Shown here: positions 2,972 through 40,433 of the stretch, piece after piece | Numbering within the stretch: the stretch's first letter is position 1 | Layout: each line of letters begins with the position of its first letter | Source of the DNA: a bacterium | GTDB taxonomy: Bacteria; JAHJDO01 | Length of the DNA: 42,350 nt | Direction of reading: 5' to 3' | NCBI GenBank assembly: GCA_018812485.1 | Contig: JAHJDO010000017.1 | Coordinates: forward strand, 1-42,350 | Position numbers and translations under genes: made by a program | The notes under the pieces: generated by a model | Database searches by the model: none | Seen by the model: the letters and a program-made list of their open reading frames with translations, nothing else | Told to the model about the DNA's origin: nothing

Positions 2972-2989
2972 ATCTAAATAATTTTGGAC

Positions 2990-5582: not shown

Positions 5583-5607
5583 TCATGCCTCCACATTCGT
5601 TGGCTTA

Positions 5608-5636
5608 ATTCTACATGAGGAGGTATTTGTTGTCAA
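5608..5636 (-). promoter_or_regulatory. Sigma70 promoter of the accD operon
   Basis: Read on the minus strand, TTGACA (5636-5631) is separated by exactly 17 bases from TAGAAT (5613-5608). Transcription would begin near 5601, giving a leader of about 20 bases before the accD ATG. This is an almost consensus promoter correctly placed in front of the first gene of the operon. Confidence 0.75.
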
Positions 5637-10300: not shown

Positions 10301-10437
10301 ATAAAAAATTCATAAATACCCTTATCCTTCATATCTATAAGCTGCCGATACATCTCGTCTTTACGCATATTGCCGGTCCATGCCCACCAGGGGACAGGAT
10401 AATATTCTTTAGGAGGTTTCTCAAAATCTTTTATCAT
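7363..10437 (-). CDS. GH106-like glycoside hydrolase (putative alpha-L-rhamnosidase)
   Basis: A protein of about 1024 aa without a signal peptide. The start has the VPWWAWTG segment, then FFIFAIYGLEYP and KVWIYDDLNWPSGSAGG, which recall the N-terminal barrel of the GH106 alpha-L-rhamnosidase group. A GATase-like middle region (about 540-640) is followed by C-terminal beta-sandwich domains of the GH2 sugar-binding type (TYSLKTI, IYRQKVKI, VNGQKVGIRPWRPYVFNI). The open frame begins 18 bases earlier with TTG (10455), but the ATG at 10437 has GGAAGTGG at good spacing and is preferred. The cytoplasmic location implies that its substrates are imported oligosaccharides. Rhamnulokinase follows directly. 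The family call rests on recall of motifs, not an alignment; the exact bond cut is unknown. Confidence 0.65.
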   Translation of the reverse strand: MIKDFEKPPKEYYPVPWWAWTGNMRKDEMYRQLIDMKDKGIYEFFIFAIYGLEYPIFLKKSWWEMVEFTLKTCRKLGMKVWIYDDLNWPSGSAGGWLLRDHPECRAWILDCQITKIRSGESYKCDSSKIPVFNEFRGDNGQRHPVELSDGQIWTNTTGTNGDLIFIERVPFEKVLLNCIGTVWAWGQRGYCDLLSRSAVQEWMNYIHKEYWRKFSTYFDSTLKGFFFDEPYAHPSNGHSAPWTPKLFEDFKKRYGYNLCAHLGKLFFDDPGFMRVRYDYWRLIAEYFGLNFSKQISDWCKEKKVLSTGHCVNEEQQSQQRQVACNGDIYQILKWMQVPGIDLLRRQTSFRKWTDGQDISGLQSLILTAKRASSTARYSGARRVMCEAFGVRSWNATMAEQKIINDWLAAMGINLINDNSLVYTISDFRKRAISGKHFTQPWWKYYRAYSEYCARISLFASTGYIDTEVAVLFPTATNIIMTPMDNRKDIPKEGKLVEVMNAVSESLVREHIDFEFLFEEIVSGAVIKNGKLKVPHAEFKVVILPKMHVMDEKVYEKLSEFADSGGIVISVDSGPEWIISPNSRNGNAQHFKDKGRFRFIGYKNKEDRAAFSKRLIDTIVRLWRLEGKGHRDIVTCMRKDGDKRMLLVANQTQEEKHLTFHHSFREITEIMDVETGRIFTAPVRRKSRDTVFDFCLGEEQSYIILLHAKKSERARPVNGLNTWIQGYKEIAVLDKTWDFSVEPMNHFLPRLWIRLDPRGKGRKEKWFQEKNSPSENREWMPVTDEKYSMAFSQEESPYYWLWGTYSLKTIKEDLCLIVDNDSYRTVYINGKVLNKSSPYSLWDQSNRKFSIAKLSHVGENYFTIRVSTSPWYSQSRGMIFDTHFTDPVVIGGMFQVIDIGKKKILGKVQSNIRSGSWTNQGYPNFAGTGIYRQKVKITSLPKIVKLVVEDAFTVVEAEVNGQKVGIRPWRPYVFNISKALQKGDNEIVLKVTNGLGNILRRYYCGKLGEKSMSGILGKVSLIQGN

Positions 10438-10487
10438 CTTTTTATCCACTTCCAACCAGCCTTTATTTTGATATTAACTTTAACCAT

Positions 10488-15480: not shown

Positions 15481-17850
15481 TTAATTGCATCTTAAACGAG
15501 TAATACCTGTTCCTGCTATTTTCTTTGGACAACCCTTAATATCAATTTCTGCTTTCAGTCCTTTTGGGACGGTAAGTTTAATATCTATATACTTATTCTT
15601 TCTTTTCCACTCTACCTCAATGAGACCTGAAGGGGTAGGAACTTTCCCTTTTACATAATTAAGATTTAAGAACTTCGGAGAAAATTGGAATTTCCTCCAA
15701 CCAGCTGATATGGGATGTACTCCGAGAACATGTTTTGATAAAAAATATGTTGGATGTGCTGACCATCCATGACAGCATGACCAGAGAACATCATTCCCTG
15801 CATTCCAGTTTTCCCACCATGTTGTTGCGTCTTTCCTTAACATATCTCCCCATTTTCCCTTAATACAATCCACAACCTCTCTTTCTCTGCCGATTTTCAT
15901 AAGCGCCCAGATAATATAGAAATAAAAATATGGAGATGCTGTCATTATTTGTGTTTTAGGATTATAAATACCTTCCAAAATCGCTTTTTTAACTTCCTCT
16001 GTATACTTTAATCCGCTAAGAACAGCCAATGAATTTGAGTGCTGGCTGATTTGGTCTATTTGTTTGTTACTATCAGAATCAAACGCTTCTATCCAGAGAT
16101 TTTTATCCTTTGACCAGAAGTGCTTTTCTATCGCTTTTTTAAGCTTAAGGTACTGCTGAGAAAGGTTTTTAGAATCTTTCCCTATTATCTTGAATATTTT
16201 TATAGCTGTTTCCAATGCTAACAGATAAAGCATATTAAAGGTTGCAGATAAATGTTTCTTATCCAGTTTTGCCCAGTCTAAGAATAGCCAGTACCTTGGA
16301 GTAGGACCTAGTAAATATTTTTTGCCAGCATGTTTCTGAAAAAAATCGAGGATTCTAAGCATAACAGGATAGCACTCTTTCAATAATGATTTATCCCCTG
16401 TAAATAAATAGTAATTATGAATGCTGATAAACCAGATAAGATTATAATCAGGATTAATACAGCGGTACCTATCCGAAGGTGCTATTCCAAATAATAGTCC
16501 TTCAAAAGTTTGAGATTGAGCAAACTGTTTTAGCCCTCTTCTAATTAGATATGGATCCCCGAAAGTATAATAATTAACAAGACTCTGTATCATCATATCG
16601 CTCAGCCATTGAGTTTGTTCACGCCATGGACAATCAACATAAGCATCAGACATGCATTTTCTAACTGTATATTTCCCCACATCCCATATCTTATTAAGCA
16701 GTTTATCAGAACATTCAAAATCACCAATTTCTGAAACCGGATATTCAATAGAATTCAAGCCGATATATTCAATCTCTACAGGTCTTCTAACACATCTTGC
16801 TACTAATAATAGATACCTTAATCCTCTGAACGAGAAAGTTTCAAACTCCTGTATACCCTTTTTTGTAATATATCTATCCATAAAAGCTACCTTACTGCCC
16901 TTGTTTGGAGGATGTATTAAGGGCTTACTATCCTCTATCTTCTCTGCATATACAAAATCAAATATTTCGCCACCATCTGCCTTATTTATTTTTAATTGCA
17001 GGCATCCTGACACTTCCTTTCCAAAATCTATTAACATACTGCTAAACTTATTCTCCTCATTTGGCAATATTGTTGTTACAGTTTTATTCGGTTTAAGAAC
17101 ATTCTCCTGATTTTTAAATAATATCTTCTGCGTTTTGTGCAGCTTCTCTTCATACAGCACATCAGAAAGTTTAGAGCTGTCTAGATAATCCTTATGATTT
17201 TTCCCAATATATTGAGCTACAATTTGTTTTGCATTTACTGTGCATTCCCTAAGCATGGGAATCCCTCTTTCCTCCATTGATTCCCATGGCAGAGTATAAA
17301 TAGGACCAACAATTGTTGCATTTTCCCAGTTGTCATCATTAAAATTTGCTTTATTCCAGCTTATCTCTTCCAGTCTTGAGTCAAAAACTTCCTGAAAGCC
17401 TGTTTGAACTGAGGTTCTCTTGGTATTTCTCTTATATGCATTAACATCTTTAACCTTCCAGCTGGAATCAGTGTCAATATTGATGCAACTTCCATTTTTA
17501 AGTAAAATATCCCCATCCACTATAAAACCAGCTCTCCATCTATGAATATAGCTAAATGTAGATTCTCCATATTGATGAACCATAATAGCCATAACATTCT
17601 TGCCGATTTTCAAATATGGCAGGATATTCACAGTATCAAATGACTGTTTCCATGGATAGCATCTGGCAGGACCTCTCGATACATATCTGCCATTGATCCA
17701 CAGCTTATACCTTGAATCCGCTGATACTCTAATAACAATTTTTTCTACATTAGTTGGAATATTGAACTGCTTACGGCCATATAAATACTTATTTCTAATA
17801 TCATAAGCTTCATTAGCCCATACCCATTTTGCAGACCATTCCTTTTGCAT
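15481..17850 (-). CDS. GH78 alpha-L-rhamnosidase
   Basis: A 789-aa inverting alpha-L-rhamnosidase of family GH78, with no signal peptide and so cytoplasmic. N-terminal beta-sandwich domains (YKLWINGRYVSRGPARCYPW) precede the (alpha/alpha)6 barrel. The barrel shows DCPWREQTQWLSD: Asp406, Glu411 (general acid region), Trp415 and Asp418, the conserved GH78 substrate cluster. TTWWENWNAG gives Glu680, the likely general base, followed by HGWSAHPTYFLSKHVLGV, the usual C-terminal block. It removes terminal rhamnose from glycosides or oligosaccharides. It follows the double amidohydrolase by 15 bases. The final codons are duplicated at 7327-7347. Confidence 0.9.
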   Translation of the reverse strand: MQKEWSAKWVWANEAYDIRNKYLYGRKQFNIPTNVEKIVIRVSADSRYKLWINGRYVSRGPARCYPWKQSFDTVNILPYLKIGKNVMAIMVHQYGESTFSYIHRWRAGFIVDGDILLKNGSCINIDTDSSWKVKDVNAYKRNTKRTSVQTGFQEVFDSRLEEISWNKANFNDDNWENATIVGPIYTLPWESMEERGIPMLRECTVNAKQIVAQYIGKNHKDYLDSSKLSDVLYEEKLHKTQKILFKNQENVLKPNKTVTTILPNEENKFSSMLIDFGKEVSGCLQLKINKADGGEIFDFVYAEKIEDSKPLIHPPNKGSKVAFMDRYITKKGIQEFETFSFRGLRYLLLVARCVRRPVEIEYIGLNSIEYPVSEIGDFECSDKLLNKIWDVGKYTVRKCMSDAYVDCPWREQTQWLSDMMIQSLVNYYTFGDPYLIRRGLKQFAQSQTFEGLLFGIAPSDRYRCINPDYNLIWFISIHNYYLFTGDKSLLKECYPVMLRILDFFQKHAGKKYLLGPTPRYWLFLDWAKLDKKHLSATFNMLYLLALETAIKIFKIIGKDSKNLSQQYLKLKKAIEKHFWSKDKNLWIEAFDSDSNKQIDQISQHSNSLAVLSGLKYTEEVKKAILEGIYNPKTQIMTASPYFYFYIIWALMKIGREREVVDCIKGKWGDMLRKDATTWWENWNAGNDVLWSCCHGWSAHPTYFLSKHVLGVHPISAGWRKFQFSPKFLNLNYVKGKVPTPSGLIEVEWKRKNKYIDIKLTVPKGLKAEIDIKGCPKKIAGTGITRLRCN

Positions 17851-19488: not shown

Positions 19489-21105
19489 TTACCTTGGAAT
19501 TACAGGCAGTAAAATATGAGAAGGGTGCTTTTTATCATGATAAACTTTTTGCAGTGCTCTAGTAAAATGTACACCCAGCTCATTGTTTTCACCTGTATTG
19601 AGATTTCTGTCAAAACGGGGAAAATTACTGCTAGAGATATCCATGTTGATCCGATGTTCCTTCTTAAATAAATAGCTTGTAGCCCAAAGATCAATCTCAA
19701 ACTTGTAAATCTTTCCCGGCTTCAGGAGACTTTCTTTCTCAAACGATTCTCTAAATTTTGCTCTAACAATTCCATCCTGTATGATAATAGATCGGCCATC
19801 GGGATATACATCAGTCAATTTTGCAGTAAAATCTGTATCCCTGACACTGGATGAAGCATAGAGAACAACTTTTATGTAACCTGTAATCTCTATCTCCTTC
19901 TTAAGAGCTTCTGTCTTGTATACAAGCACATCCTCTCTCTTTTCGAGCTGACTCTGGTCAAATGGCCCTCTGGAAATGCCTGCAAGAGGACTGGGTCCGG
20001 AGTTGCATCCTCCTATTGTAGGCACTGGATTAGAGGGATTATATGCAAAATTATCAAATGGTTCATCTTCTGGAATAGTTGTGGATAGATAACCTTTGCT
20101 GTGAAGATAGAACGGTGTATATTCTGTTCTTGATAGAGGCCACTCTTTTTCTTCTCTCCAGACGTTTTCTCCCATAATGAAAATTCTAACAGGATCTTCT
20201 TCCAAACTTCCATTTTTTAACCAGCGATTCATCCATCTTATGACTTCTACATTCTCCACTTCATAGACAGTTTCAACTTGTGGAACAAGATTTTTATCTC
20301 CTTCTAATCCTGTACTACTATGATCCCAAGGACCTATAATTAATCTATGCTGCAGCTTTTTTTGCTTTGAAATCCATGAGTAATAATCCAGAACATCAGG
20401 TGTTATATGATCATACCATCCGGTTATACAAAGATTAGCTGCTTTTATATTTTTTGATTTGATTATATTCAAGAAATCCATCCGTTTGCATAGATAGTTA
20501 TTAATACAATCTTTATAAAAAGTTGTATCTATTCCGGTTTTATCTAAGATAGAAATTACAGGAAGCTTCTTTAACAATTTATTCCAATCAAACTCTCTAA
20601 GAGGATTGAGTTTTATTCCAGCTGTATATGTTGCCCACAAAACAACCTGCAAGAACTGGAGTGTTCCTCCTGTGTGATTAGTAGAAGGTATGAGAGGATA
20701 TGGAGCTGCATCCGGACACATAGCTAGAAGATGAGGATTTCCTGTAAGACCACAGGCAATTTGAGTATATCCTGGATATGATCTCCCAAATGTACCAACC
20801 TTTCCATTAGACCAGGGCTGTTTTATAATCCAGTTTATCGTATCTTCACCATCTCTTATTTCGTTATCATATGGTTTCCATGTCCCTTCTGAACCAAATT
20901 TTCCCCTTGAATTCTGATAAATAACAGCATATTCATGCTCTGCAAAATATGTACACTGTTCTTTATTATTAAACCCTGAAGAACCATAAGGAGTACGGCA
21001 AAGAAGTGCAGGAAATTTCTGATTGGTTTCAGGACGATATATAATAGTTTTCAGTTGTACTCCATCTCTCATTGGGATCATTGTTTCAAATGTATTTATA
21101 TTCAT
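19489..21105 (-). CDS. CocE/NonD family hydrolase (esterase or acyl-peptidase)
   Basis: A 538-aa alpha/beta hydrolase with an X-Pro-dipeptidyl-peptidase-type C-terminal jelly roll. The nucleophile is Ser109 in GRSYPGY; likely Asp and His partners are Asp232 in GWYDH and His262 in GPWDHS. Family members cut esters (cocaine esterase, glutaryl-7-ACA acylase) or X-Pro peptides. No signal peptide is seen, so it acts inside the cell. In this operon it could remove acyl groups from imported glycosides, which is inference. It starts 29 bases after the GH42 gene with no clear ribosome binding site and ends 6 bases before the double amidohydrolase. Confidence 0.8.
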   Translation of the reverse strand: MNINTFETMIPMRDGVQLKTIIYRPETNQKFPALLCRTPYGSSGFNNKEQCTYFAEHEYAVIYQNSRGKFGSEGTWKPYDNEIRDGEDTINWIIKQPWSNGKVGTFGRSYPGYTQIACGLTGNPHLLAMCPDAAPYPLIPSTNHTGGTLQFLQVVLWATYTAGIKLNPLREFDWNKLLKKLPVISILDKTGIDTTFYKDCINNYLCKRMDFLNIIKSKNIKAANLCITGWYDHITPDVLDYYSWISKQKKLQHRLIIGPWDHSSTGLEGDKNLVPQVETVYEVENVEVIRWMNRWLKNGSLEEDPVRIFIMGENVWREEKEWPLSRTEYTPFYLHSKGYLSTTIPEDEPFDNFAYNPSNPVPTIGGCNSGPSPLAGISRGPFDQSQLEKREDVLVYKTEALKKEIEITGYIKVVLYASSSVRDTDFTAKLTDVYPDGRSIIIQDGIVRAKFRESFEKESLLKPGKIYKFEIDLWATSYLFKKEHRINMDISSSNFPRFDRNLNTGENNELGVHFTRALQKVYHDKKHPSHILLPVIPR

Positions 21106-21134: not shown

Positions 21135-23282
21135 TTATTTATAAAGTTTGAATATCTTTGTCTCATAACCATTAAGCTTTACAGATTTATTTATCCAGTT
21201 TTTCCTATCATTGGATAACGTGTCCCATGCAGTTTTGTAAGAATTTTTCTGCTCTAACGAGACACAAATCTTTCGTGAAGTGTTATTAAATAAGAAGAGT
21301 ATGTCCTCTTTTTTCTGCCCTCTTAGCATTCTAAAACATACTCCATCAGGTACATTTAATAAAGGTTTTGAAATATTCGTAATATCTAATATTCTGTTAA
21401 AAACTTTGTGGATAAGATCCTTTTCCAAACCTGAAGATAAACTTCCTTCTTCATCGTCTGCCAACCTCACAGCTGGAGAATATGATAATCCAAGATTAAT
21501 TCCACACATTATGGCTTTGCCTTTGCCATGTTTATTAATTGTTATGGCAGGAGATTTATCATCAAATGAGGCTATGATTTTACATCCAGAATGATTATAT
21601 TTTTCAACAAAATGACTGTTCCCAATTTGGTATTTTTTACCATTCATAATAACAGATACCTTTCTTTCAGGACTTAACCTAAATACATCTTTATTACTCA
21701 CTCCGAATATTTCATCAAATCCTCTCCCAGGAATATTTTTCTCATCCAGCCAGAAGTTTTGATCAAATGCACAGAGGAATGGATCAGAAAAGACAGTGCC
21801 GCCTTTATAAATATAATCTTTCAGGACTTCTACTATTTTATTGTCCAGAGCAACAGGAAATGGAAGAACTATTAGTTTGTATTTATATAGATCTTCTTTG
21901 TTACAATGTAATTCATGGATAATATCGCATGGAACATTCATCTCCCAGAATAAGTTGTAATACCCTAATAGGCATTGATAAGGAATTGTTGTCGTATTAT
22001 TATTTTTACACCAATAGACTGCGTATGAGCGTGGACTGAACAGGATTGCAACCTCAGACTCAGGAACTTTACAGTTTAGAAACAAATCTTCATTTTCTTT
22101 TAAGATTTTAGCGATTTTCATAAATTCTCTGCCGCTTTCGTTTGGCTTTGAACCGTCAATAGATACCATCCCAAGGGAATTGGCTTCAGTACCATGTCTT
22201 TCTTTCCTGTACTGCCAGTAAAGCACTCCTTTTGCCCCATGTGCAATACTGAGCCATGTCCACATAGCGAATTGCTTCTCGGATATTTCCCCTCTGGGAT
22301 TTATTCCTGTACCTAGTTGACCACAACCCAGTTCAGACTGCCAGACTTCTTTGTTTCTTCCAGCATTTCTCGTAGCATCCACTGCTAATGAAACTCCCAC
22401 TGTATCTGAATATTGACTTGGGAATCCACTGCATCCCCATTTATCCATAATATGCGCATTATCCCAGTCATCAAAAGCCATTGCTGGAAGAACATTATTC
22501 TGCACCTGGCTCCCGCCATATGAGTGTCCAATTACGGGTTTATTACTCAGTTTCTTTATAGTATTTATTCGCCTTTTAAGCTCAGCAATCAAATTATCTT
22601 TTGTAAAGGTTCTCCAATCAATCCAGTCTGTATAGCTCATCTTCCATGTTGGTGGAAATACCTGGTCAAAACCGATGAATCGCCTTCCCCATGTCTTATT
22701 TAGAACTGATATAGAGGTATACTTCTCTTTCAGCCATTTTCTGAATGCGTTTTTTGTCGCTTCACAATAGCAGTATTCTTCATTATTTAAATGGTCAAAA
22801 AAAACATGGGGTTCATTCATTGGCTCCCAGAAAGAAAGTGATTCTCTATCCTTAACGTGCGAGACAACTCTCTTTATAAAATTCAAAGTTATATCCTGAA
22901 CCTCTTTATTATCATAACAAAGTCCAGGCCATCCACCTGACGGAGTATTATTTCTGGGAGAAGGTAAAAATGAAATTCCTTTTGCATTAACATAATAATA
23001 CTGGGGATATTTACAAATTGCCCATTCAGGAGCGGCATGAAGGTGAAATAGACATCCTATTTTAATATCATACCTATCTCCCAAATCAAATATCTTATCG
23101 AGATAATCATAGTCAATAACACCTTCTCTAATTTCCAGTCTGTTCCAGAGCAGCCATACACGAATGGTATTCACTCCCATTTTCTTCATATTCTTGAAAT
23201 CTTTCTCCCATTGGTCCATTCTGGGAGTTTCACCTCTTAGATACTGTACGCCATATACGAACATACAATTATTCTCCTTCAT
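21135..23282 (-). CDS. GH42-like beta-galactosidase
   Basis: A 715-aa retaining glycosidase of the GH42 (clan A) type. The TIM barrel begins MGVNTIRVWLLWNRLE, and the acid/base is Glu157 in FWEPMNEP and the nucleophile Glu317 in WQSELG. A GATase-like trimerisation domain follows at about 400-620 (SEVAILFSPRSYAVYW, LIVLPFPVALDNKI), then a C-terminal beta domain. The usual Cys-rich zinc site is not evident. No signal peptide was seen. The ATG overlaps the stop of the 1233-aa gene (TAATG) and has only a weak ribosome site, so coupled translation is likely. The precise glycoside is unknown: GH42 also includes arabinosidases and other activities. Confidence 0.8.
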   Translation of the reverse strand: MKENNCMFVYGVQYLRGETPRMDQWEKDFKNMKKMGVNTIRVWLLWNRLEIREGVIDYDYLDKIFDLGDRYDIKIGCLFHLHAAPEWAICKYPQYYYVNAKGISFLPSPRNNTPSGGWPGLCYDNKEVQDITLNFIKRVVSHVKDRESLSFWEPMNEPHVFFDHLNNEEYCYCEATKNAFRKWLKEKYTSISVLNKTWGRRFIGFDQVFPPTWKMSYTDWIDWRTFTKDNLIAELKRRINTIKKLSNKPVIGHSYGGSQVQNNVLPAMAFDDWDNAHIMDKWGCSGFPSQYSDTVGVSLAVDATRNAGRNKEVWQSELGCGQLGTGINPRGEISEKQFAMWTWLSIAHGAKGVLYWQYRKERHGTEANSLGMVSIDGSKPNESGREFMKIAKILKENEDLFLNCKVPESEVAILFSPRSYAVYWCKNNNTTTIPYQCLLGYYNLFWEMNVPCDIIHELHCNKEDLYKYKLIVLPFPVALDNKIVEVLKDYIYKGGTVFSDPFLCAFDQNFWLDEKNIPGRGFDEIFGVSNKDVFRLSPERKVSVIMNGKKYQIGNSHFVEKYNHSGCKIIASFDDKSPAITINKHGKGKAIMCGINLGLSYSPAVRLADDEEGSLSSGLEKDLIHKVFNRILDITNISKPLLNVPDGVCFRMLRGQKKEDILFLFNNTSRKICVSLEQKNSYKTAWDTLSNDRKNWINKSVKLNGYETKIFKLYK

Positions 23283-26200
23283 TATTTTTCTCTAATCCAG
23301 AATATTTTCCATTCATAAGAAGGAATATCCAGAACGATTTTATTTTTGTTAATAGAAATATTATCCGAGCTTAACGAATCATTGGCTGCTACAACAGCTT
23401 TTGTCAATCCCAGCTTATGCAAATCAAATACTAATTCAACCTTGGACTTCGTCTGGGTTAAGTTGGATACTATCACAAGAACGCCATTGTTGGGATGCTG
23501 ATAAAGACTTGCATAGCAGCTTGAAGGAGTCACCTTTACAAAATCTTGGTTTTTCCAGTATGGTAAGAATTTTGCTTTATTACAGCCAAAAGCGTCTCTT
23601 ATTTTCCAGATTCCAGACAAAATTTCTAAATCCTTCTCTTTTTCAGGGCGAACCGGTACATCGTGAAGCAACGTCACGGCCAGTGATGCATTATAGTTCT
23701 TAAGACAGTAGTAAAGAAAGTCTGCCGGCACTCCAAGGTTATGCCCCATAAATTGTGTTCGGAATGTATCTAGAGGTATGCTATCAAGAAAGTTTTCTTT
23801 AGGACGAAGCTGTTCGCCTTCCCAATAAGTTGTGGAAAAGGCGATTGCAGAACTATTCATGCAATTTCCCGAATGCGCATCCACAATGCCGTCGGGTTTA
23901 CGTTCCTTAACGATAGTATACAAACGTTTCATCAATTGCCGCGTCGCAAATATAGGATAAGTAGATTTATATGTCCCATCTGGTTTTCTATAGCCGCATC
24001 CATGAAGCGCATTGTTACATTTTATAGGCAAGATTGTGCCGTCCAAATAAATGCCGTCAACATCATATTTGTCTATTAAACGGCTGACACTATAAACAAC
24101 AAAGTCCTGCCACGCGCTCTGCCTGCACGCATAATAGGTCATCTGTTTTTGCAAACCGGGAAGGGTGCTTATATAAAACGGTCTGGTAGGCCGAATTAAC
24201 ATATCATATTTGAAATTATTAAATTCTGGTGCAACTTCTGACAAAAGAAATCCCACAGCATAAGGAACAACTTTAAGATTATATTTATGGCACTCATTTA
24301 CAAGTTTAGGAAACTTATTTTCGTGCCCTAAAGGAAGTACATAAGAGAACGCATCCCACCATCGCCATACTAAAAGGGCTTTTGCCCCCTTATCAGAATA
24401 AAATTTCAATGCAGGTTCACCTTGAATCTTTTTATTTATCCACGCATATTCATTTGCATAGGGAGGCTGCCTTACAATGCGGTCGTCCCAGGCACTTCTC
24501 TCCATAGGCCGAACAGGCGTTGCCTGCAATGCAAAAACATAGGTTAGCTTTTTCTTCTTTTCAAGGTGTATTGGTTTATCAATAAGTGTTATTCTAAGAA
24601 GGACTTCTTTATCACTTTTAAGGATTTGAATAGCTTTTTGCTCATCTTTAAGGAACCAATTTTTATCTGATTCAGCAAACCATGAAAGCCCTCTCTCCTC
24701 ATCGCCGATCCAGATAATAGGTTTGAATGAAAAAGCAAAATTATCATTCAGACTGCCGGAATAAAAGCTAACATCATAGACCTTACTGACACCCGGCCAG
24801 GCGTAGAAATATTTAGCGTGATTTTTCTGAATAGGAAATTCTAATATCAACTCATCTATATTCACATCATCTATAGCTTCAATTTCCCAATCAATTTTCG
24901 TAAAACCATCATATTCTATATCTGTATTGATGTTAATATTCATCCCTCTTCCAATAAGGTTACGAGCAAAAATCGCTTTATTTGGTTTGCTTGAGAGCAA
25001 TTCAAGCATATTGGAACGTAATGTTATTTCCTCCCCGTTCACTTTGCCGGTTAAGCGGACCGGACCTGTCAAAAGATCAGCTTGCGCACTTTTAATATTG
25101 TCCAGGAAAGGAGATGCTCCTATTGTGTATTGGCGCCCCCAGGGATGGATATCATATTCATCCTCTCGTTTTTCCACTTCTAAAGGCGTGTAGGGGGGCA
25201 TTACTTTGTCCGTTATACCTATTTTATTATTAAACCAGCTGGGTTTTTCTATATAAGGAACTTTCTCAAAAACTGTTAAAATACAGTTCTTAGCACGGTC
25301 AAAAAAGTTAACCTCAAATCGATAATCACCGGGCTTTAACTGGCTGGCCTCCACCAAATCTGTTATCAACCATCGTTTTGAACCAGGCCTGGTTTCCCTG
25401 GTTAAAATAACTTTTTTATTAGCAACAACTTTTTTGTCATCACAGTTTATGACTTTAATTTGTATATCAGCGTCTTTTTCTATGTTCTCACAAAACATTT
25501 CGGCAAAAAATGCGTTTTTATGATAACTGAAACCTGTCTCTAATTTACATTTAGGCTGGACGGCTAGATCCTCTTTACCTGCGTGTTTCAAGATTTCCTG
25601 TGTCGAAAGGGCCTTATTATAAAGAAGAATTTCATCAATGTCGCCTTTGAAATACCCGTGTCCCCATCCGCCAATTTGAAATGGACCGCCGGATGTTTTT
25701 GTAATCAAAAAATCAATTTGTCTGTGTTCAATCAGTTTCCCATCTACGTATAAATAATATTTATTTGGAGATTCTATAACAACAGCAACATGCTTCCACG
25801 TTCCATCAAAATCTACCGATTCCGTGTCTTTAAAACATTGCCATGCGTCCCCATTTCCCCATTCAAAGTACAACAAATTGTTGTTACTAATTCTTAGATT
25901 ATAATTTCTATGGATTACAAAGCCCTCCAAACTATCGCCGAAAATAAGCCAATGATGGGACTGCTTCTTATTTCGGATATCAGTTTTTATCCAGGCTTCA
26001 ATAGTCAACTCCCCGTTAAGATTCAATGACGGAGGGGATCCTAAATCTACACAATCATCTGCTCCGTCAAATCGAAGAGCATAACCTCGCGGTGAATTAA
26101 CGTATGCAGCACCATAAATCTTGCCACTATTCCCATTTCCGCTCACGTCTTTAAGAACAGTACCCCTTCCCTCATTAAATGTATAATGGGCTATCAGCCC

Positions 26201-26983
26201 TTTTTCTCCTTTCGCTGTTTTAACCTGCACTAGATTTTCTGTATTTACCGGGCTTGATTCTATAAGAGGCACTTCTGTTTTTTTTTTAGCTTTCACCAAC
26301 GAAGGCATCTGATAATTCGGGACTAATCTTATGTTGTCTATGTAAAAATCTCCTTGAAAAGTACTTATAGTCGCAAATCTAATTGTAGCTATAAAATCTA
26401 TTGTATTTATAAACTCAGCATTCTCAATAGAAGCTACGGTATTTTCCTTTTCATCAACTACCCACAACGAGTAATTACTATTCGTTATATCGCCATTTAA
26501 TTTAACCGTGTACCATTTATTGGCATCAAATTTACCTATTTTTACTTGGCGTTGCTCGCCTTTACCTGTCACGCAGACAAAACCGTTGTAAAACATTATT
26601 CCTAATGCTTGTTCCTTATCTTCCATAAGATGACAATATAAATAATTGCCGCTTGCTTTTCCAATCGGGTAGATTTGATATTCCAAATAAAATTTATCCC
26701 TAATGGGTTGATCCAGCTTTCTAGTAATACCTGCAGCGTATTGCTTACTGGTATCCTTCAAACGAATACTCTTATCAGATGAATTTCTGAATTCTTCTAT
26801 TGATGCACATGCATCTTCTCCCATTTGGTTTGCCTTCCATGAAGGTATTTCCAGCGCCGGGCCTGTCGGTATCTGGTCAAAGGATTCCTCGATCTTTTCC
26901 GCAAAAATCGGTCCACACACTAAACATACATACAAAAGCCCGCAAAAAAATACTTTTAGTCCTCCTTTTTGATAATTATTCAT
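23282..26983 (-). CDS. Secreted LamG-containing putative glycoside hydrolase
   Basis: A 1233-aa exported protein. Residues 1-28 form a signal peptide (charged start, hydrophobic core, cleavage after IFA). Residues 30-222 are a beta-jelly-roll of the concanavalin type; LamG follows at about 262-460 (AHYTFNEGRGTVLKDVSGNGNSG). Residues 480-560 are an Ig-like sandwich. The C-terminal half, about 565-1233, resembles the DUF6067-type glycosidase-like region, including a barrel with VWRWWDAFSYV and DVDGIYLDGT, where Asp residues could be catalytic. No catalytic assignment can be proved. It is the only clear signal-peptide enzyme of the operon and lies beside a prepilin-like gene. AAGGAGG before the ATG fits. 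It may cut or bind polysaccharide at the surface. Confidence 0.65.
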   Translation of the reverse strand: MNNYQKGGLKVFFCGLLYVCLVCGPIFAEKIEESFDQIPTGPALEIPSWKANQMGEDACASIEEFRNSSDKSIRLKDTSKQYAAGITRKLDQPIRDKFYLEYQIYPIGKASGNYLYCHLMEDKEQALGIMFYNGFVCVTGKGEQRQVKIGKFDANKWYTVKLNGDITNSNYSLWVVDEKENTVASIENAEFINTIDFIATIRFATISTFQGDFYIDNIRLVPNYQMPSLVKAKKKTEVPLIESSPVNTENLVQVKTAKGEKGLIAHYTFNEGRGTVLKDVSGNGNSGKIYGAAYVNSPRGYALRFDGADDCVDLGSPPSLNLNGELTIEAWIKTDIRNKKQSHHWLIFGDSLEGFVIHRNYNLRISNNNLLYFEWGNGDAWQCFKDTESVDFDGTWKHVAVVIESPNKYYLYVDGKLIEHRQIDFLITKTSGGPFQIGGWGHGYFKGDIDEILLYNKALSTQEILKHAGKEDLAVQPKCKLETGFSYHKNAFFAEMFCENIEKDADIQIKVINCDDKKVVANKKVILTRETRPGSKRWLITDLVEASQLKPGDYRFEVNFFDRAKNCILTVFEKVPYIEKPSWFNNKIGITDKVMPPYTPLEVEKREDEYDIHPWGRQYTIGASPFLDNIKSAQADLLTGPVRLTGKVNGEEITLRSNMLELLSSKPNKAIFARNLIGRGMNININTDIEYDGFTKIDWEIEAIDDVNIDELILEFPIQKNHAKYFYAWPGVSKVYDVSFYSGSLNDNFAFSFKPIIWIGDEERGLSWFAESDKNWFLKDEQKAIQILKSDKEVLLRITLIDKPIHLEKKKKLTYVFALQATPVRPMERSAWDDRIVRQPPYANEYAWINKKIQGEPALKFYSDKGAKALLVWRWWDAFSYVLPLGHENKFPKLVNECHKYNLKVVPYAVGFLLSEVAPEFNNFKYDMLIRPTRPFYISTLPGLQKQMTYYACRQSAWQDFVVYSVSRLIDKYDVDGIYLDGTILPIKCNNALHGCGYRKPDGTYKSTYPIFATRQLMKRLYTIVKERKPDGIVDAHSGNCMNSSAIAFSTTYWEGEQLRPKENFLDSIPLDTFRTQFMGHNLGVPADFLYYCLKNYNASLAVTLLHDVPVRPEKEKDLEILSGIWKIRDAFGCNKAKFLPYWKNQDFVKVTPSSCYASLYQHPNNGVLVIVSNLTQTKSKVELVFDLHKLGLTKAVVAANDSLSSDNISINKNKIVLDIPSYEWKIFWIREK

Positions 26984-27008: not shown

Positions 27009-27578
27009 TTAATAATTTGAGCCATAGATATCATTACATACCTTAGCCCACGAAACATGTCCGTCCAGCCACAAAATATTTCCTCCGTCGTTATGTATAG
27101 TTCTAAGTCTATTTGCATTAGGCCATGTTTGAATAACTGTAGAATCAAGCATATACATCGTTTCTGATGGATTTGCCTTTCCATAAGATTTTATATTTTT
27201 CCCATTATTATTGAGTGTCATCCCATAAATATAAACATCGTCTCCACCAACTGGGCAGAAATAGGGTGAACTAGTATCATTCCAATCGTCAAGGGCTACT
27301 CCAATGTATTGCTGATTCAGTTGGTGACGCCAGTCTATTACACCATTATTCTGCACAGGAAAAAAACCATCATGGTTGTCAAAGTAGATCATACTGGCTA
27401 TCCCAAGTTGCCTGAGGTGGCTGATGCAGACTGTTCTTTTTGCTAATGCCCTTGCTTCCTGTAATCCTGGTAGCAGCATAGATGCAAGCAGAGCAATGAT
27501 GGCTATTACAACAAGAAGTTCTATTAACGTGAAAGAGCTCCTGCTTCCCCAAATCCTTCTTATTTTATCTATTAACAT
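27009..27578 (-). CDS. Type II-style prepilin with C-terminal H-x9-DG motif
   Basis: A 189-aa pseudopilin-like protein. [28 protein letters not shown] at 15-42 is the prepilin peptidase recognition site and transmembrane helix, with Phe16 as first mature residue and Glu20 at position +5; residue -1 is Ser rather than the usual Gly. The C-terminal part ends with His162, nine residues, then Asp172-Gly173, the H-x9-DG motif of proteins numerous in Lentisphaerota and Planctomycetota. A strong AAGGGGGTG precedes the ATG. It sits between a RhaI-like isomerase and the secreted LamG protein, which suggests help in display or secretion at the cell surface, although no partner machinery is nearby. Confidence 0.85.
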
Positions 27579-31548: not shown

Positions 31549-31581
31549 GAGCTTTTTTGAATTATTATGAATTTTTTTGAT
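31526..31581. promoter_or_regulatory. Candidate operator: three T-rich direct repeats
   Basis: Three 13-base near-identical units of the form gaacTTTTTTgaa begin at 31526, 31549 and 31569 (spaced 23 and 20 bases, about two helical turns). The first two differ at one base; the third is less exact. The first lies in the spacer of the operon promoter and the second abuts its -35 box, so a bound DeoR-type repressor would block it. No xylB promoter is certain: TTGAAT and ATAAAT 17 bases apart at about 31558-31586 are possible. Confidence 0.45.
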
Positions 31582-31731
31582 AAATACCAGCTTTTTTTAT
31601 CTGCATTTGGAGAAGTATTGCCAATAACCAGTAATTCTACCTATTTTCACAAAAAGTATATAGGTGTTGCCTTAATCCTTAATTATTTGATAAAATTACT
31701 CAATTTGGAAAAACAAGTAAAGGAGACAAAT

Positions 31732-33231
31732 ATGGAATATACTATTGGAATTGATATAGGCACGACAGGCGTAAAAACTCTTTTATGCAGTAATAAAGGA
31801 GAAATAATATCAAGTTCCCTTGCAGAATATTCTCTTTCTCATCCAAAGCCGGGCTGGGCAGAACAGGATCCTTGCGACTGGTGGAAGGCCACAGTAGAAT
31901 CTATTAAATCTGTCATAAATGAGGCAGATATCAGCAAAGAAGATGTTAAATCAATAGGATTAACAGGGCAGATGCACGGTGCTGTTTTTCTGGACAGCGG
32001 CAACAATGTGTTAAGACCTGCGATACTCTGGTGTGACCAAAGAACAGCTGCTGAATGTGATGACATAAACAGAATTATTGGAAAAGAAAACCTGATAAAT
32101 CTTGTCTCTAATCCTGCTCTCACCGGATTTACCGCCCCCAAGATCCTGTGGGTGAAAAAAAATGAGCCGCAGATTTACGAGAAAACAAAAAAAATTCTAC
32201 TTCCAAAGGATTATATAAGATTCAGGCTAACCGGAGAATTTGCAGGTGATGTCTCAGATGCATCAGGAACCCTGCTTTTCGATGTAACGAACAGAATCTG
32301 GTCAACGACGATGCTGGAAAAACTGGATATCGATAAAAATTTTATGCCGCAGGTTGTTGAATCATCAGAAGTAACAGGCAGAATAACAAAAGATGTTTCT
32401 GAATTAACGGGCTTATTCAGCGAGACGATTGTTGTCGGTGGAGCAGGTGACCAGGCCGCAGGCGCAGTTGGATGCGGAATCGTAGAAGAAGGCATCATAT
32501 CCTCAACCATAGGAACATCAGGTGTTGTTTTTGCGTACGCAGATAAAGTGAAGAACGACCCTTTGGGGAGACTTCATACATTTTGCCATGCAGTCCCGGG
32601 AAAATGGCATGTAATGGGAGTAATGCTTGCTGCGGGAGGTTCCTTTAAATGGCTCAGAGATACACTTGGTGAAAATTCATATCAGGTAATGACCGAACAA
32701 GCTTTAAAAGCTCCTGTTGGAAGCGAAGGGCTGATTTTTCTTCCTTATCTTATGGGAGAGAGAACACCTCATGCTGACCCGGATGCCAAGGCAGTGTTTT
32801 TTGGAATTTCCCCCAGACATACAAGGTCCCATATCATTCGTTCAGTAATGGAGGGAGTAAGTTTTGGATTAAGAGATTCCATGGAAATTATAAATGAACT
32901 GGGGATTCCTGTATCTGAAATCCGAGCTTCTGGAGGAGGAGCAAAAAGCAAGCTATGGAGACAGATCCAGGCAGACGTTAACAAAGAAGCTATTTATACA
33001 ATAAATGTAGATGAAGGCCCGGCATTTGGTGCTGCTTTACTTGCTATGGTAGGTGCAAAAATTTATGCCTCTGTACCCGAAGCCTGCAGGCAGACCATAA
33101 AAACAATAGAAAAAACCGAACCCATAGTAGAAAATACGAAAATCTATGATGAATACTACAGACTCTACAAAAACCTATATAAGTCTCTGAAAGATAATTT
33201 TAAACAGTGCTCTAAATTAGTAATTCATTAA
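31732..33231 (+). CDS. xylB: Xylulokinase
   Basis: A 499-aa FGGY kinase that phosphorylates D-xylulose to xylulose 5-phosphate. The ATP site TIGIDIGTTGVKT (residues 4-16, Asp8), GLTGQMHGAVFLD, ILWCDQRT, and the C-terminal RASGGGAKSKLWRQIQAD are the xylulokinase pattern. An open frame continues upstream to 31567, but AAGGAG 6 bases before this ATG and the family N-terminus mark the true start. The upstream part contains a DNA segment resembling 5669-5700. The kinase leads the plus-strand operon. Substrate choice among FGGY members is by motif and length, so another ketopentose is possible. Confidence 0.85.
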   Translation: MEYTIGIDIGTTGVKTLLCSNKGEIISSSLAEYSLSHPKPGWAEQDPCDWWKATVESIKSVINEADISKEDVKSIGLTGQMHGAVFLDSGNNVLRPAILWCDQRTAAECDDINRIIGKENLINLVSNPALTGFTAPKILWVKKNEPQIYEKTKKILLPKDYIRFRLTGEFAGDVSDASGTLLFDVTNRIWSTTMLEKLDIDKNFMPQVVESSEVTGRITKDVSELTGLFSETIVVGGAGDQAAGAVGCGIVEEGIISSTIGTSGVVFAYADKVKNDPLGRLHTFCHAVPGKWHVMGVMLAAGGSFKWLRDTLGENSYQVMTEQALKAPVGSEGLIFLPYLMGERTPHADPDAKAVFFGISPRHTRSHIIRSVMEGVSFGLRDSMEIINELGIPVSEIRASGGGAKSKLWRQIQADVNKEAIYTINVDEGPAFGAALLAMVGAKIYASVPEACRQTIKTIEKTEPIVENTKIYDEYYRLYKNLYKSLKDNFKQCSKLVIH

Positions 33232-33250
33232 AAATTAGAAATTAATAATC

Positions 33251-34237
33251 ATGGACCCTCAATCAATAGAAGCCATTTTAAGTAAAAAACTCCTATTAGA
33301 ACTCCGAAGGTTGTTTTATAAAGCAACAGGTATGACGATATCCTTTATAATCGGCAAACGTGGAGGAGATGTGGATTTTTTCCCGAAATCAGAAAGAAGC
33401 CGGTTCTGTAAGATCATACATTCCACACAGAAAGGTAGAGCGCGGTGCGTCCTCTCAGATGCAGCAGCTATTAACACTGCCTTTCGGAGACGAAAACCTC
33501 ATATCTATCAGTGCCACGCAGGGCTTACTGATATTGTTGTCCCCATAATAGTGAAAAACAAACTCATAGGAGCCCTTGCCTCAGGCCAGATGCTTATCAA
33601 TAAGCCAACAGATAAAGATTTCCTTTTAATAAAAAAGAAAACTCTGGATTTAAAAATTGATCACAACAAACTTGAAGATGCGTATAAAAAGGTCGAATTT
33701 GTTTCACGCGGTAAACTGGACATAGTGGTAAACCTCATGTTTTTCATGGCTAATTTTATTGTAGAGAGGGAATCTGTAATTGCGCTTCAGGAAAAACTTA
33801 TCAAACAGCAGAAAAAAATAGTAGAGGCAAATAAACAAAAAGAACAGTGGAAAAAAGAGCTTAGAAAGGCCATGCCTTTTATTGAAATAGAAAATGTCCC
33901 ATCCCGGGAACATTCACGACATGAAAAGATTATCATAGAAGCCAAAAGATTTATTGAAACCAATTTTACAAAAAGCCTGAATCTCAAAGATGTCGCTGAA
34001 GCAGTTTATCTGAGTCCTAATTACTTCAGCAATCTATTCAAACACTATACAAACTATACCTTCCATGAATATCTGATGAAGATCCGTATTGAAAATGCGG
34101 AAAAGCTTCTCAGCAGATTAGACCTTAATGTATCACAGGTCTCAAATCTTGTAGGATATGATGACCCGAATCACTTCAGCAGAGTATTTGCAAAAATAAC
34201 AGGCCATTCTCCCCAAAAATATCGTCAGAACTTCTGA
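33251..34237 (+). CDS. AraC-family regulator with PocR-type sensory domain
   Basis: A 328-aa transcription factor. Residues 10-180 are a PocR ligand-binding domain (KATGMTISFI, RARCVLSDAAAI, IYQCHAGLTDIVVPI), and 225-328 carry the two AraC helix-turn-helix motifs (LKDVAEAVYLSPNYFSNLFKHYT and VSQVSNLVGYDDPNHFSRVFAKITGHSPQKYR). A charged coiled-coil-like linker lies at 183-220. PocR is the propanediol sensor of the pdu system; rhamnose breakdown gives lactaldehyde and 1,2-propanediol, so such a ligand is plausible here. It starts 20 bases after xylulokinase with a weak ribosome site and probably activates this operon. Confidence 0.85.
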   Translation: MDPQSIEAILSKKLLLELRRLFYKATGMTISFIIGKRGGDVDFFPKSERSRFCKIIHSTQKGRARCVLSDAAAINTAFRRRKPHIYQCHAGLTDIVVPIIVKNKLIGALASGQMLINKPTDKDFLLIKKKTLDLKIDHNKLEDAYKKVEFVSRGKLDIVVNLMFFMANFIVERESVIALQEKLIKQQKKIVEANKQKEQWKKELRKAMPFIEIENVPSREHSRHEKIIIEAKRFIETNFTKSLNLKDVAEAVYLSPNYFSNLFKHYTNYTFHEYLMKIRIENAEKLLSRLDLNVSQVSNLVGYDDPNHFSRVFAKITGHSPQKYRQNF

Positions 34238-34391
34238 AACCGTAAAATAATAAGAATCTCCAGAAAAAAGTAAGATAATCCATAGACAAAACTATGATCG
34301 TATTGCTAATATGTCACTAGATTGAAAAACTGAGAGAAATTAAATACATGAAAACAATGATTCAAACAGCAAAGAAATTTGGAGAGTATTA

Positions 34392-36137
34392 ATGGCAGAC
34401 TCAAATAAGTGCAAAGGGAACCTTGCAGTCTTAACAGTAATAGACAGTAGCAAGAAGGAATTTAGGTATGTTGAGCAAGGATTCTTTCTTGCTTTTCGGC
34501 ATTTAGGAATACCTTACAGAATAATAGATTTATCAAAAGAAAATTTAACCCCGGGGGAAATCGCTGACTGCCGAGCTGTTGTTATTGCTCAGGAAGGAAT
34601 AGGAGAAAAGTTTTCTTCGGCTGATGGAGACAGCATTAAAAAGTCCATAGAAGAGTCTGGTATAGGATTGATTAATTTTGATCATCGCCTGAATTCTTAT
34701 CCTTCTGTCCTACGTAATGTACTTATCGGCACAGATAAAAACATTAAATTTACTACCTCAAAAGGACTAAGAATAAAAGATACCCATCACTTTATTACTG
34801 AAACATACGAAGAAAATCAGAAGGCAAAATTCTTCCAAAATATTGAAATGGCAATTCTGCCATCGTCTTTTGAGAAAGATAATCTTATTAGCTCATTAGA
34901 AAATTATCCTGTTCTAAATTTATCGCGTCTTGGCAAAGGAAGAGTTATCCAGTTTTTCATCTCTCCCAGGATGTGGCACTGTGAATATTTCGGACATTTG
35001 CACGGTTTTGATGGGCTTTTTTATAAGTCAATTATCTGGACTGCAAAGAAACCTTTTCTTGCAATGACAATGCCTCCGTTTGTTACAGCAAGAATAGATG
35101 ACTGTTCCGGCTCAGGAAGTCATTACATAACAAATGGAAAAAGCGCAGCAGTGAATTTCAGATACATTGATGTTTTAAATAAATATGGCTATATTCCTAA
35201 TATCGGTTTGTTTCTTGATGACATTACAGATAGTGACGGGAATATCATAAGGAAAAAACATGATAATAAACTTGCTGAATTTTCTCCACATGCATTTGGA
35301 GAGAGTAAGGATAGAAAAATTAAGAGTATGATATATATGAAACATAGCGGAGATGAATATACTAAAGAAGAACTCAAAAAGATTTTTAAAAAAGTAGATA
35401 GAAAATTTTCCTCGTGGGGAATAAGACCGTCAAAAGTGCTTAATGCTCATTACTGTGAAACGGGAATTAACTCCATTCCCTTCCTGAAGAAAAGGGAACA
35501 AAACTTTTTAATGGGAATTTCTGTTTTGTTTGGAAAACCATACAACGCTCCTCCTCCAGAAAATTGGAAACCCTATGAAATAAGAAGAAGCGACGGGAAA
35601 TATGCTTTTATTGCTGACTATATGCCTGATTATCCGGAATTTTTCAACCTATCAAATACATTCCCTTATGAGGAGCGCATTGATTTTCTTCACGAGAATA
35701 CAAAATTCGAAGGTGAAAACAAAAAGAATGATATAGACGAAGCAATAACAAAAGGGGTTGAAATAATAACAATAGGCTTAGACAGTTTGTTTTTTGGCTG
35801 TCTCCTGACACATGAACAGAGAATATCTGCTATGAGCATTGAAGAATGGGAACAAGTTCTGAAGGGTATAGACAAATTGACTTCAAAATATAAAAAGATA
35901 TTTAAAGGATATGACTATATTGCTGAATACGCAAAGAGTAGATACGACACAAAAATAACAGAGGCAAATTATAATTCCACAACAGAGCAGATAATATTAA
36001 AACTAAAAGGTAAGTCTGCCCTGCCGTTAAAGGTTTCTGTTTATAATGATGAAAGCTATCAACATAAATTTAAAGAAATACCGGTATTTAGTGGAGAAGC
36101 ACAGATTAAATTCGAAGCACGAAGCACGAAATACTAA
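34392..36137 (+). CDS. Unrecognised 581-aa protein, possibly GATase-like plus deacetylase-like
   Basis: I do not recognise a defined family. Residues 10-220 have alternating strands and helices like a class I glutamine amidotransferase (AVLTVIDS, AVVIAQEGIGEKF, YPVLNLSRLGKGRVIQFF). Residues 230-500 resemble a carbohydrate-deacetylase-like barrel: RIDDCSG (Asp236, Asp237), FSPHAFG (His300) and NAHYCETG (His353) could form a metal site. There is no signal peptide. GGAG lies 8 bases before the ATG, with the TAA of a 23-codon upstream frame overlapping it. The last eight codons lie in the intergenic repeat beginning at 36111, so the natural C-terminus may have been replaced. Confidence 0.5.
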   Translation: MADSNKCKGNLAVLTVIDSSKKEFRYVEQGFFLAFRHLGIPYRIIDLSKENLTPGEIADCRAVVIAQEGIGEKFSSADGDSIKKSIEESGIGLINFDHRLNSYPSVLRNVLIGTDKNIKFTTSKGLRIKDTHHFITETYEENQKAKFFQNIEMAILPSSFEKDNLISSLENYPVLNLSRLGKGRVIQFFISPRMWHCEYFGHLHGFDGLFYKSIIWTAKKPFLAMTMPPFVTARIDDCSGSGSHYITNGKSAAVNFRYIDVLNKYGYIPNIGLFLDDITDSDGNIIRKKHDNKLAEFSPHAFGESKDRKIKSMIYMKHSGDEYTKEELKKIFKKVDRKFSSWGIRPSKVLNAHYCETGINSIPFLKKREQNFLMGISVLFGKPYNAPPPENWKPYEIRRSDGKYAFIADYMPDYPEFFNLSNTFPYEERIDFLHENTKFEGENKKNDIDEAITKGVEIITIGLDSLFFGCLLTHEQRISAMSIEEWEQVLKGIDKLTSKYKKIFKGYDYIAEYAKSRYDTKITEANYNSTTEQIILKLKGKSALPLKVSVYNDESYQHKFKEIPVFSGEAQIKFEARSTKY

Positions 36138-36249
36138 ACAATATCAAATGACTAAAATACAAATGTTTAAAACAATGTTTTTGAATTTTGAAAATTTGAA
36201 TTTAAAATTTGTTTCGAGTTTTGGATTTAGAATTTTGGATTTTATTTAA
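36111..36249. repeat. AT-rich intergenic repeat with palindromic core
   Basis: The unit starts with two tandem gaagcac heptamers (36114-36127) plus a third imperfect copy, runs through an AT-rich stretch made of tttgaattttgaaa-like words and their reverse complements, and ends near tttggattttattt. Sequences with this layout recur between genes in many environmental bacterial genomes as I remember them, but no second copy was found in this window. It forms the end of the 581-aa gene and produces the spurious plus-strand frame 36046-36249. Confidence 0.45.
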
Positions 36250-39369: not shown

Positions 39370-40431
39370 TTACATTGACAAAGCAGTTTCATAAATTGCC
39401 ATGATATTTTCTACCGGAGTGTCAGGCTGAATTGCATGCGCAGGACAAACAATATATCCACCATCCTTACCAATAACCTTGATGACACGTTTAACCTCTT
39501 TCCGAACCATTGATGCAGTGCCTTGAGGAAGCAATTCTTGTTCGTCAATACCTCCATGAAAACACAATCTATTACCAAAGCGAGATTCTAGATTTTTTGC
39601 ATCCATTCCTGCTGCCTTAGGCTGAATCGGGTCTAAGATATCAAGACCCATTTCAATAAAATCTTCAATTACAGGGACAATACTCCCACATGAATGGTAA
39701 TAGGTTATTAATCCCATATCCTTAAACGGTCTGATAAGTTGTTTGCTATAAGGCTTGATATGTTTACGCCACAATTCGGGAGAAAGCATCATGCCTTTCT
39801 GCGTGCCGATATCGCCGCCACTTCCAATAATATCAATCTGACCATTAGAGGATTCAATAACCCGCATAGCCCGCTCTCTGTAAAATTCCATAGCATGACG
39901 AGAGATCGCTTCAGCAATGTCCGGACATTCGATTAAATCCATCAGAAACCTTTCCATACCTCGCATATACCACGGTGTTTCAAATGCCCCGCCGGCAAAA
40001 TACATTATTGCATAACGATTATCTTTATTTATCCGCGCGATTTCGTCCTTTAAATGAGAAAAGTCAAACCAGTCTACCTTTGGCCATGGATAATCCTCAA
40101 TTTCTTTTACAGTCGTTGCTTTGGCTAAAGGATGAAAAGCAATTTCATTATAGGTGCCAAATTCATTCTTAACCGGTTTCCAGACAATGCCCAGGAAATC
40201 CTTTCCTTGAGCACCTACCCCGGCTGCTCCGGTCATATCTTTCGGTCCAATAAAAGGTACTGCTACCCGACGGATATCAACTCCCAGTTTTCTGAGAAGT
40301 AGTTCATCATCTTCAATACCAAGGTGCTTCTTAACCATTGCATTTGTCTCAGGTGTAGCAATATAATCAATTGCCGGCCTGTCAGGACGTTGATGATTAA
40401 TAGCTTTTAAAATGCGCTCATATGGTTCCAT
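39370..40431 (-). CDS. UroD/MtaA-like methyltransferase family protein
   Basis: A 353-aa protein of the uroporphyrinogen decarboxylase superfamily, but of the branch resembling corrinoid methyltransferases MtaA/MtbA. His246 and Cys248 (YYHSCGS) with Cys329 (IVCPAH) are placed like the zinc ligands H-x-C-xn-C of that group. The open frame begins at GTG 40434, but GGAGG is best placed 7 bases before the ATG at 40431. The 3' end of the Gfo/Idh gene overlaps. Such proteins are frequent in sugar and aromatic clusters and have no settled reaction there. No corrinoid protein was found nearby. Confidence 0.7.
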   Translation of the reverse strand: MEPYERILKAINHQRPDRPAIDYIATPETNAMVKKHLGIEDDELLLRKLGVDIRRVAVPFIGPKDMTGAAGVGAQGKDFLGIVWKPVKNEFGTYNEIAFHPLAKATTVKEIEDYPWPKVDWFDFSHLKDEIARINKDNRYAIMYFAGGAFETPWYMRGMERFLMDLIECPDIAEAISRHAMEFYRERAMRVIESSNGQIDIIGSGGDIGTQKGMMLSPELWRKHIKPYSKQLIRPFKDMGLITYYHSCGSIVPVIEDFIEMGLDILDPIQPKAAGMDAKNLESRFGNRLCFHGGIDEQELLPQGTASMVRKEVKRVIKVIGKDGGYIVCPAHAIQPDTPVENIMAIYETALSM

Positions 40432-40433
40432 CA

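Follow-up and report, generated by a model that had tools for sequence, protein, structure and literature searches.

The window analysed here, a stretch of 42,350 nucleotides from a bacterium of the lineage JAHJDO01 (contig JAHJDO010000017.1, assembly GCA_018812485.1), encodes on its minus strand a large multidomain protein headed by a signal peptide. It is quite probable that this protein is a secreted retaining glycoside hydrolase (GH) that belongs to an unassayed family of the alpha-galactosidase-like superfamily and most likely cuts a rhamnose-containing polysaccharide. The gene and the successive parts of its product are the following:

23282 to 26983, minus strand: secreted multidomain protein of 1233 amino acids (aa), open frame with an ATG start
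26900 to 26983, minus strand: signal peptide, residues 1-28 (sequence reading and hydropathy)
26219 to 26899, minus strand: N-terminal beta-rich region, residues 29-255 (sub-threshold match and low-confidence model; jelly-roll or carbohydrate-binding module unproven)
25592 to 26068, minus strand: LamG domain (Laminin_G_3), residues 306-464 (Pfam, 92.3 bits)
25253 to 25552, minus strand: Ig-like beta domain, residues ~478-577 (strands of the model, predicted local distance difference test (pLDDT) of 84-94 over the block)
24518 to 25180, minus strand: beta-supersandwich, residues 602-822 (within the PF19543 match, and model)
23588 to 24478, minus strand: (beta/alpha)8 barrel, residues 836-1132, GH36/GH66-like (model and structure comparison)
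23288 to 23539, minus strand: C-terminal beta domain, residues 1149-1232 (model)

The open reading frame is real and not due to chance: a simple model of base composition gives a frame of 1233 codons at 38% GC a probability of about 2e-37. An earlier note, made from the letters of the DNA, had described a signal peptide, jelly-roll, LamG and Ig-like regions and a C-terminal barrel. The signal peptide (MNNYQKGGLKVFFCGLLYVCLVCGPIFA followed by E, with the cleavage site assigned by eye), the LamG domain and the Ig-like strands were recovered as listed, and the barrel was retrieved in a confident model, structure prediction having been one of the checks proposed. The N-terminal jelly-roll did not hold up: over residues 29-225, the PF22585 match reaches 17.7 bits, below the cut-off of 27, and the predicted model of residues 24-256 has a pLDDT under 50 and is unusable. 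Besides, hydropathy was used to screen for export 33 of the 42 open reading frames of at least 100 aa, the other nine overlapping larger frames on the opposite strand. A strongly hydrophobic N-terminus was seen in three of the screened proteins, namely the 1233-aa protein, a prepilin-like protein (27009-27578) and an FAD protein (1844-2971) whose hydrophobic stretch would rather correspond to a nucleotide-binding fold. Among these 33 frames, the 1233-aa protein is the only clearly exported enzyme, in agreement with the earlier note.

Regarding family assignment, the catalytic unit spans residues ~582-1233 and matches the Pfam entry PF19543, named GH123_N, at 128 bits (cut-off 22, E 4.1e-37). 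The best stretch places residues 582-840 on profile positions 325-604 of 969, and a profile search at the genome level adds positions 751-934, corresponding to residues 1015-1198; the entry is therefore covered only in part, positions 1-324 being unmatched. DUF6259 (PF19773) is matched at residues 856-995 with 30.3 bits, just above its cut-off of 28.7. The claim that no family could be assigned thus stands in part: Pfam does provide these two names, but neither brings a fitting activity, and GH123_N, the sole numbered GH name found for the catalytic half in Pfam or NCBIfam, designates a family whose characteristic features are lacking, as detailed below. Within these libraries, the refuting outcome named in the earlier note, a match to a GH family of known activity, was therefore not obtained. 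In NCBIfam, the only match is TafC, over the LamG region (33.7 bits versus a cut-off of 410), and no PDB chain matched the protein by phmmer up to an E-value of 1. A literature search found no paper on DUF6259 or on DUF6067, the latter being presumably the earlier name of PF19543.

Residues 565-1233 were modelled with AlphaFold2 on an alignment, hereafter A1, of the window protein and 36 relatives (37 members, 21-50% identical to the window protein). All 37 match PF19543, while DUF6259 and GHL6 are each matched by 6/37. The model (pLDDT 89.5, predicted template modelling score 0.92) consists, in this order, of a beta-supersandwich, a (beta/alpha)8 barrel and a C-terminal beta domain. In Foldseek, the top match is the alpha-galactosaminidase 9ayu (E 2.6e-22), which we take to be a GH36 member, followed by GH36, GH101, GH13-type, GH97 and GH31 enzymes. 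With VIA-align, in which rows less than 1 Z apart are ties, the scores are 19.3 for 9ayu (547 residues, root mean square deviation (rmsd) 7.3), 19.2 for the beta-galactosidase 9m0e (218 residues, in the supersandwich), 18.8 for the GH66 glucanotransferase 3wnl (366 residues, rmsd 4.3) and 18.4 for the barrel of Cwp19, 5oq2 (265 residues, rmsd 3.5).

Conservation was read from an alignment of 106 sequences, the window protein among them. It was derived from 143 frames that match the profile, after removal of those with fewer than 450 profile positions, of those spanning more than 1000 aa and of those lying wholly within another frame; some rows may still be nearly identical. Four conserved residues stand out in the barrel, the strands being numbered by eye from the DSSP line of the model:

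24041 to 24043, minus strand: D981, predicted nucleophile, end of beta4 (YLDGT), 105/106 sequences
23939 to 23941, minus strand: R1015, 106/106 sequences
23873 to 23875, minus strand: H1037, end of beta5, 102/106 sequences
23813 to 23815, minus strand: E1057, predicted general acid/base, after beta6, 106/106 sequences

Y908 is also kept in 105 of the 106 sequences, and the sole exception at D981, in the relative L019 (...IFDGG), looks like a slip of the alignment. D981 lies in the acidic motif VDGIYLDGT (residues 975-983) already pointed out in the earlier note. The view taken there, of a barrel of hydrolase type that bears catalytic acids but has no family of applicable known activity, is supported, D981 and E1057 forming the candidate pair. 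The A1 profile aligns D981 with D328 of neopullulanase (E 2e-4 for the whole sequence, 0.0053 for that stretch alone) and with the Asp of the DGWQGDT motif of the GH66 dextranase 3vmn (E 0.0014, stretch 0.0021). The Asp residues of GH13, GH66 and, with a weak score, GH36 on which D981 falls are presumably the nucleophiles of these enzymes. In addition, D981 and E1057 are 76 residues apart, a spacing that resembles the one of GH36 and GH66, about 70 residues, more than the 29 residues of GH13.

The genomic setting is that of rhamnoside catabolism:

5706 to 31656, no strand: block of ~26 kb holding the family gene and the neighbours listed here, absent from the syntenic site in the congener G003, ends uncertain by ~50 bases
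27009 to 27578, minus strand: prepilin-type (N_methyl) protein, directly upstream of the family gene, DUF1559 match below cut-off
21135 to 23282, minus strand: GH42-like beta-galactosidase-type protein, next gene, no signal peptide (Pfam, hydropathy)
19489 to 21105, minus strand: CocE/NonD-type hydrolase (library scan)
15481 to 17850, minus strand: GH78-type alpha-L-rhamnosidase, no signal peptide (library scan, hydropathy)
7363 to 10455, minus strand: GH106-like alpha-L-rhamnosidase (63.2 bits, cut-off 29)
5835 to 7304, minus strand: FGGY kinase, best match rhamnulokinase (395.8 bits, below the curated 528)

Amidohydrolases and two xylose/rhamnose-isomerase-like proteins, the latter below cut-off, complete the neighbourhood, and hydropathy revealed no signal peptide in any of these enzyme neighbours, from the GH42, CocE/NonD, GH78 and GH106 proteins to the amidohydrolases, the kinase and the isomerase-like proteins. 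In G003, the window segments 216-5705 (91.7% at the nucleotide level) and 31657-34312 (79%) are contiguous, with an overlap of ~50 bases; the alignments of accD and xylulokinase end 133 bases apart, and the intervening ~26 kb are missing. Since both the GH78 protein and the family enzyme are found in 0/4 congeners, whereas the Mur-ligase-type, folC-like flank gene (3393-4727) is found in 4/4 with 81-93% identity, the block is accessory, be it by gain or by loss. The same flank gene makes contamination of the contig an unlikely cause of the lone copy. Further GH78 paralogs are present in the window genome, and no tRNA was found in the window.

A few observations concern the surroundings of the block. 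The xylulokinase-type frame (31567-33231) carries about 57 extra N-terminal residues; as XylB is matched only from residue 60 onwards and the edge of the block lies at 31657, the real start is probably located downstream. A second block difference is seen at 34312-34348, where G003 has about 5.6 kb that the window lacks (L191 17284 to L192 3872). Finally, positions 36105-36247, upstream of a DegT gene, correspond to a dispersed intergenic repeat of about 140 bases that recurs at two places of the congener stretch (L191 208-347 and 3977-4118, 89-94%).

From the domain make-up, the predicted fold, the conservation and this genomic setting, we infer catalysis, its retaining course, the roles of the individual residues and the substrate. 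The signal peptide would export the protein, the LamG and other beta domains would probably hold a glycan, and the supersandwich, barrel and C-terminal beta domain would cut glycosidic bonds by a two-step retaining mechanism in which D981 would act as the nucleophile and E1057 as the acid/base, R1015 and H1037 being placed in or near the site. The enzyme would most likely shorten a rhamnose-containing polysaccharide outside the cytoplasm, and the GH78, GH106 and GH42 enzymes, devoid of signal peptides, would then finish the pieces. In the same line, the proposal of the earlier note that the protein makes oligosaccharides that are imported is plausible, because the glycosidases encoded next to it lack signal peptides and no other enzyme of the screened set is clearly exported.

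Several points weigh against this scheme. Compared profile to profile with a GH36 alignment, D981 falls on the Asp of the KWD motif with a weak score (E 0.015, probability 2.9%), and the same comparison with GH66 frames from the genomes leaves the site unaligned (probability 0.1%, E 0.72), the template holding two sequences after exclusion of a third GH66 place split over two frames. The acid/base of GH36 is an Asp and not a Glu, and only the ends of the strands served to assess how D981 and E1057 are placed. Literature searches found neither an assay of the family nor an assayed activity for the C-terminal part of PF19543 that defines it, and the 33 screened frames include no evident multi-pass membrane protein and therefore no evident importer. 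Finally, homologs of the window GH78 protein occur in only 3/69 loci of named relatives (L076, L087, L093), many of these loci being short; rhamnose therefore does not appear as a trait of the family, the substrate is proposed with caution, and the link to rhamnose is drawn at the level of the genome only.

The alternative that best survives is one of substrate: with a real chance, if short of an even one, a barrel of the same type would act on a target unrelated to rhamnose, such as an alpha-galactoside, an alpha-glucan or a sulfated glycan. The enzymes of most similar fold have alpha-galactosides, alpha-galactosaminides and alpha-1,6-glucans as substrates. Around L070, the closest named relative (49%), the search brought no counterpart of the window GH78 protein; three of the neighbours scanned there correspond to an esterase-like protein, a methyltransferase of the MTTB type and a sulfatase. 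Nevertheless, the gene sits within a compact rhamnose block in the window genome, and a GH78 homolog likewise lies some 4 kb from a second family member, on contig C108.

It is improbable that the protein cuts peptidoglycan or another MurNAc/GlcNAc glycan, as the GHL10 protein Cwp19 would. The structural score of Cwp19 given above, a profile E-value of 0.033 and a weak GHL10 match (18.5 bits versus 27.9) point in this direction, but the likeness is limited to the barrel, while the supersandwich and the C-terminal domain suit GH36-type enzymes and the gene neighbourhood is one of rhamnoside catabolism. The title of the report on Cwp19 (PMC6016235) describes this protein as a lytic transglycosylase. 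Even less credit can be given to a catalytically dead barrel in a protein that would only bind glycans, as could be imagined from the LamG and other binding-type beta domains, for both acids are kept in at least 105/106 sequences among relatives as divergent as those of A1.

The weakest alternative, hardly credible, is a GH123 beta-N-acetylgalactosaminidase working by substrate-assisted catalysis, which has in its favour the PF19543 score and a short match of the full-length PF19543 protein L027 to the GH123-type enzyme 8k2j (residues 299-363 only, E 0.0022). GH123 enzymes are described in passages of Sumida et al. 2024 (PMC11087588) as having the GH123_cat/DUF4091 domain and a consecutive Asp-Glu dyad. 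The Pfam scan found GH123_cat (PF13320/DUF4091) neither in the window protein nor in any of the 37 A1 members, and the dyad is missing, D981 being followed by G982 and a Glu at 982 being present in 2/106 aligned sequences. GH123_cat was also sought in 12 genomes and was met at 26 places in six of them, none in the window genome. Eight of these proteins, at least three of them cut by locus ends, were scanned against PF19543: six do not match it, and two match only profile positions 183-310 or 196-301, in the part that the window protein lacks. Similarly, the region of L027 common to the window protein begins at about residue 367, after its match to 8k2j. GH123 structures were neither among the fold-search matches listed nor among the 29 profile-compared chains, an absence that is no evidence either way. 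GH123 membership was therefore rejected on domain, motif and profile position. Because the two matching GH123_cat proteins and the 8k2j match map before the shared region, PF19543 is, as judged from these alignments, a composite that fuses a GH123-like N-terminal sandwich with a different enzyme, and the window protein holds only that enzyme, which would correspond to the C-terminal two thirds of the entry. The GH123 label misleads and should not be used for this protein. This matters beyond the window: since PF19543 is given as the GH123 domain by an annotation tool of 2026 (PMC13355591, in which IPR045711 also appears), GH123 counts in metagenomes made via PF19543 may partly count a different enzyme.

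Regarding its distribution, the window query finds relatives in 1/5 genomes of its own phylum (its own genome only, one of the others being 62% complete), in 2/59 genomes of the set of relatives (own included), in 3/3 genomes of the phylum of G019 and in 17/35 of that of G266. The PF19543 profile matches in 7/289 genomes and in 0/14 controls. The window genome holds four family members, on C17, C46, C42 and C108; a fifth match, on C2, is weak (E 0.003) and was not counted. When named genomes were scanned, 104 stretches were obtained; relatives are encoded by 71 of them, spread over 69 loci. According to the record titles, these are bacterial (Planctomycetes, Lentisphaerae, Kiritimatiellae, Verrucomicrobia, Armatimonadetes/Zipacnadia, Gemmatimonadetes, Omnitrophota, Elusimicrobia and Clostridia) and archaeal (Bathyarchaeota, Brockarchaeota and Methanothrix), and no plasmid relative was found by tblastn. 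A quick tree places closest to the window protein L070 from Zipacnadia, the C46 paralog and L071 from Lentisphaerae. A striking expansion is seen in G266 and G290 (2.7 and 2.4 Mb), with 25 family matches each, some frames giving two matches and several copies sharing one contig (e.g. loci L041, L045, L059, L069 and L166-L170). URO-D-family proteins also lie near several family genes, and an MTTB-type methyltransferase lies near the L070 gene (window 39370-40434; L151 3084-4178; L153 15197-16882; L070 3647-5227); such neighbours might possibly take part in the demethylation of methylated sugars.

The prepilin-type gene is separated from the family gene by 25 bases. A same-strand prepilin frame lies within 1.5 kb upstream of 21/79 testable family genes (98 distinct genes in all) and downstream of 4/87. 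In a separate count, such a frame precedes 22/77 family genes versus 11/376 other large frames of the same loci (Fisher p 3e-11), in which at least one place may have been included twice, because L111 and L162 look like a single contig. Both counts use mechanical frames in loci chosen for holding a family gene, each with its own rules, and a neighbour of this kind may also accompany other secreted genes. The prepilin-type protein is a possible partner of the family enzyme in export or display.

A broader proposal, rather doubtful as a whole, would make these proteins a founding GH family that escaped study because the Pfam entry fuses a GH123-type N-terminal domain to it; this family would be spread across bacteria as well as some archaea, with multiple copies in certain small genomes. 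Its members would be secreted retaining enzymes, often encoded behind a prepilin-type gene possibly aiding export or display, and the window member would open a rhamnose-rich polysaccharide. The family is in any case mislabelled and widespread, and its clear predicted catalytic pair is now testable by two point mutants.

Among known systems, the window protein is collinear with PF19543 over positions 325-604 and 751-934, above cut-off, but lacks positions 1-324 and the GH123-like N-terminal sandwich that they hold. DUF6259, for which Pfam describes no function, GHL6 and GHL10 each cover only part of the barrel. With GH66 enzymes (dextranase, cycloisomaltooligosaccharide glucanotransferase), it shares the fold of the barrel and C-terminal domain and the aligned DG..D motif, whereas Glyco_hydro_66 (PF13199) is not matched and the N-terminal supersandwich falls outside the aligned range. 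With GH36 enzymes (alpha-galactosidase, alpha-galactosaminidase), it shares the three-domain layout and the best fold match, and the predicted nucleophile at the end of beta4 aligns weakly with theirs, but identity is only ~9-10%, Melibiase (PF02065) is not matched and the second acid would be Glu1057 in place of the Asp of GH36. Finally, DSSM_1 of Sumida et al. 2024 (PMC11087588) is assigned to GH123 by domain search although it has neither the DE motif nor DUF4091, and its barrel resembles a GH66 glucanotransferase; it was set aside there as a non-candidate, and the passages of that article devoted to it give no assay. By its description, DSSM_1 displays the same pattern of domain, motif and barrel as the window protein, and the two may well be kin.

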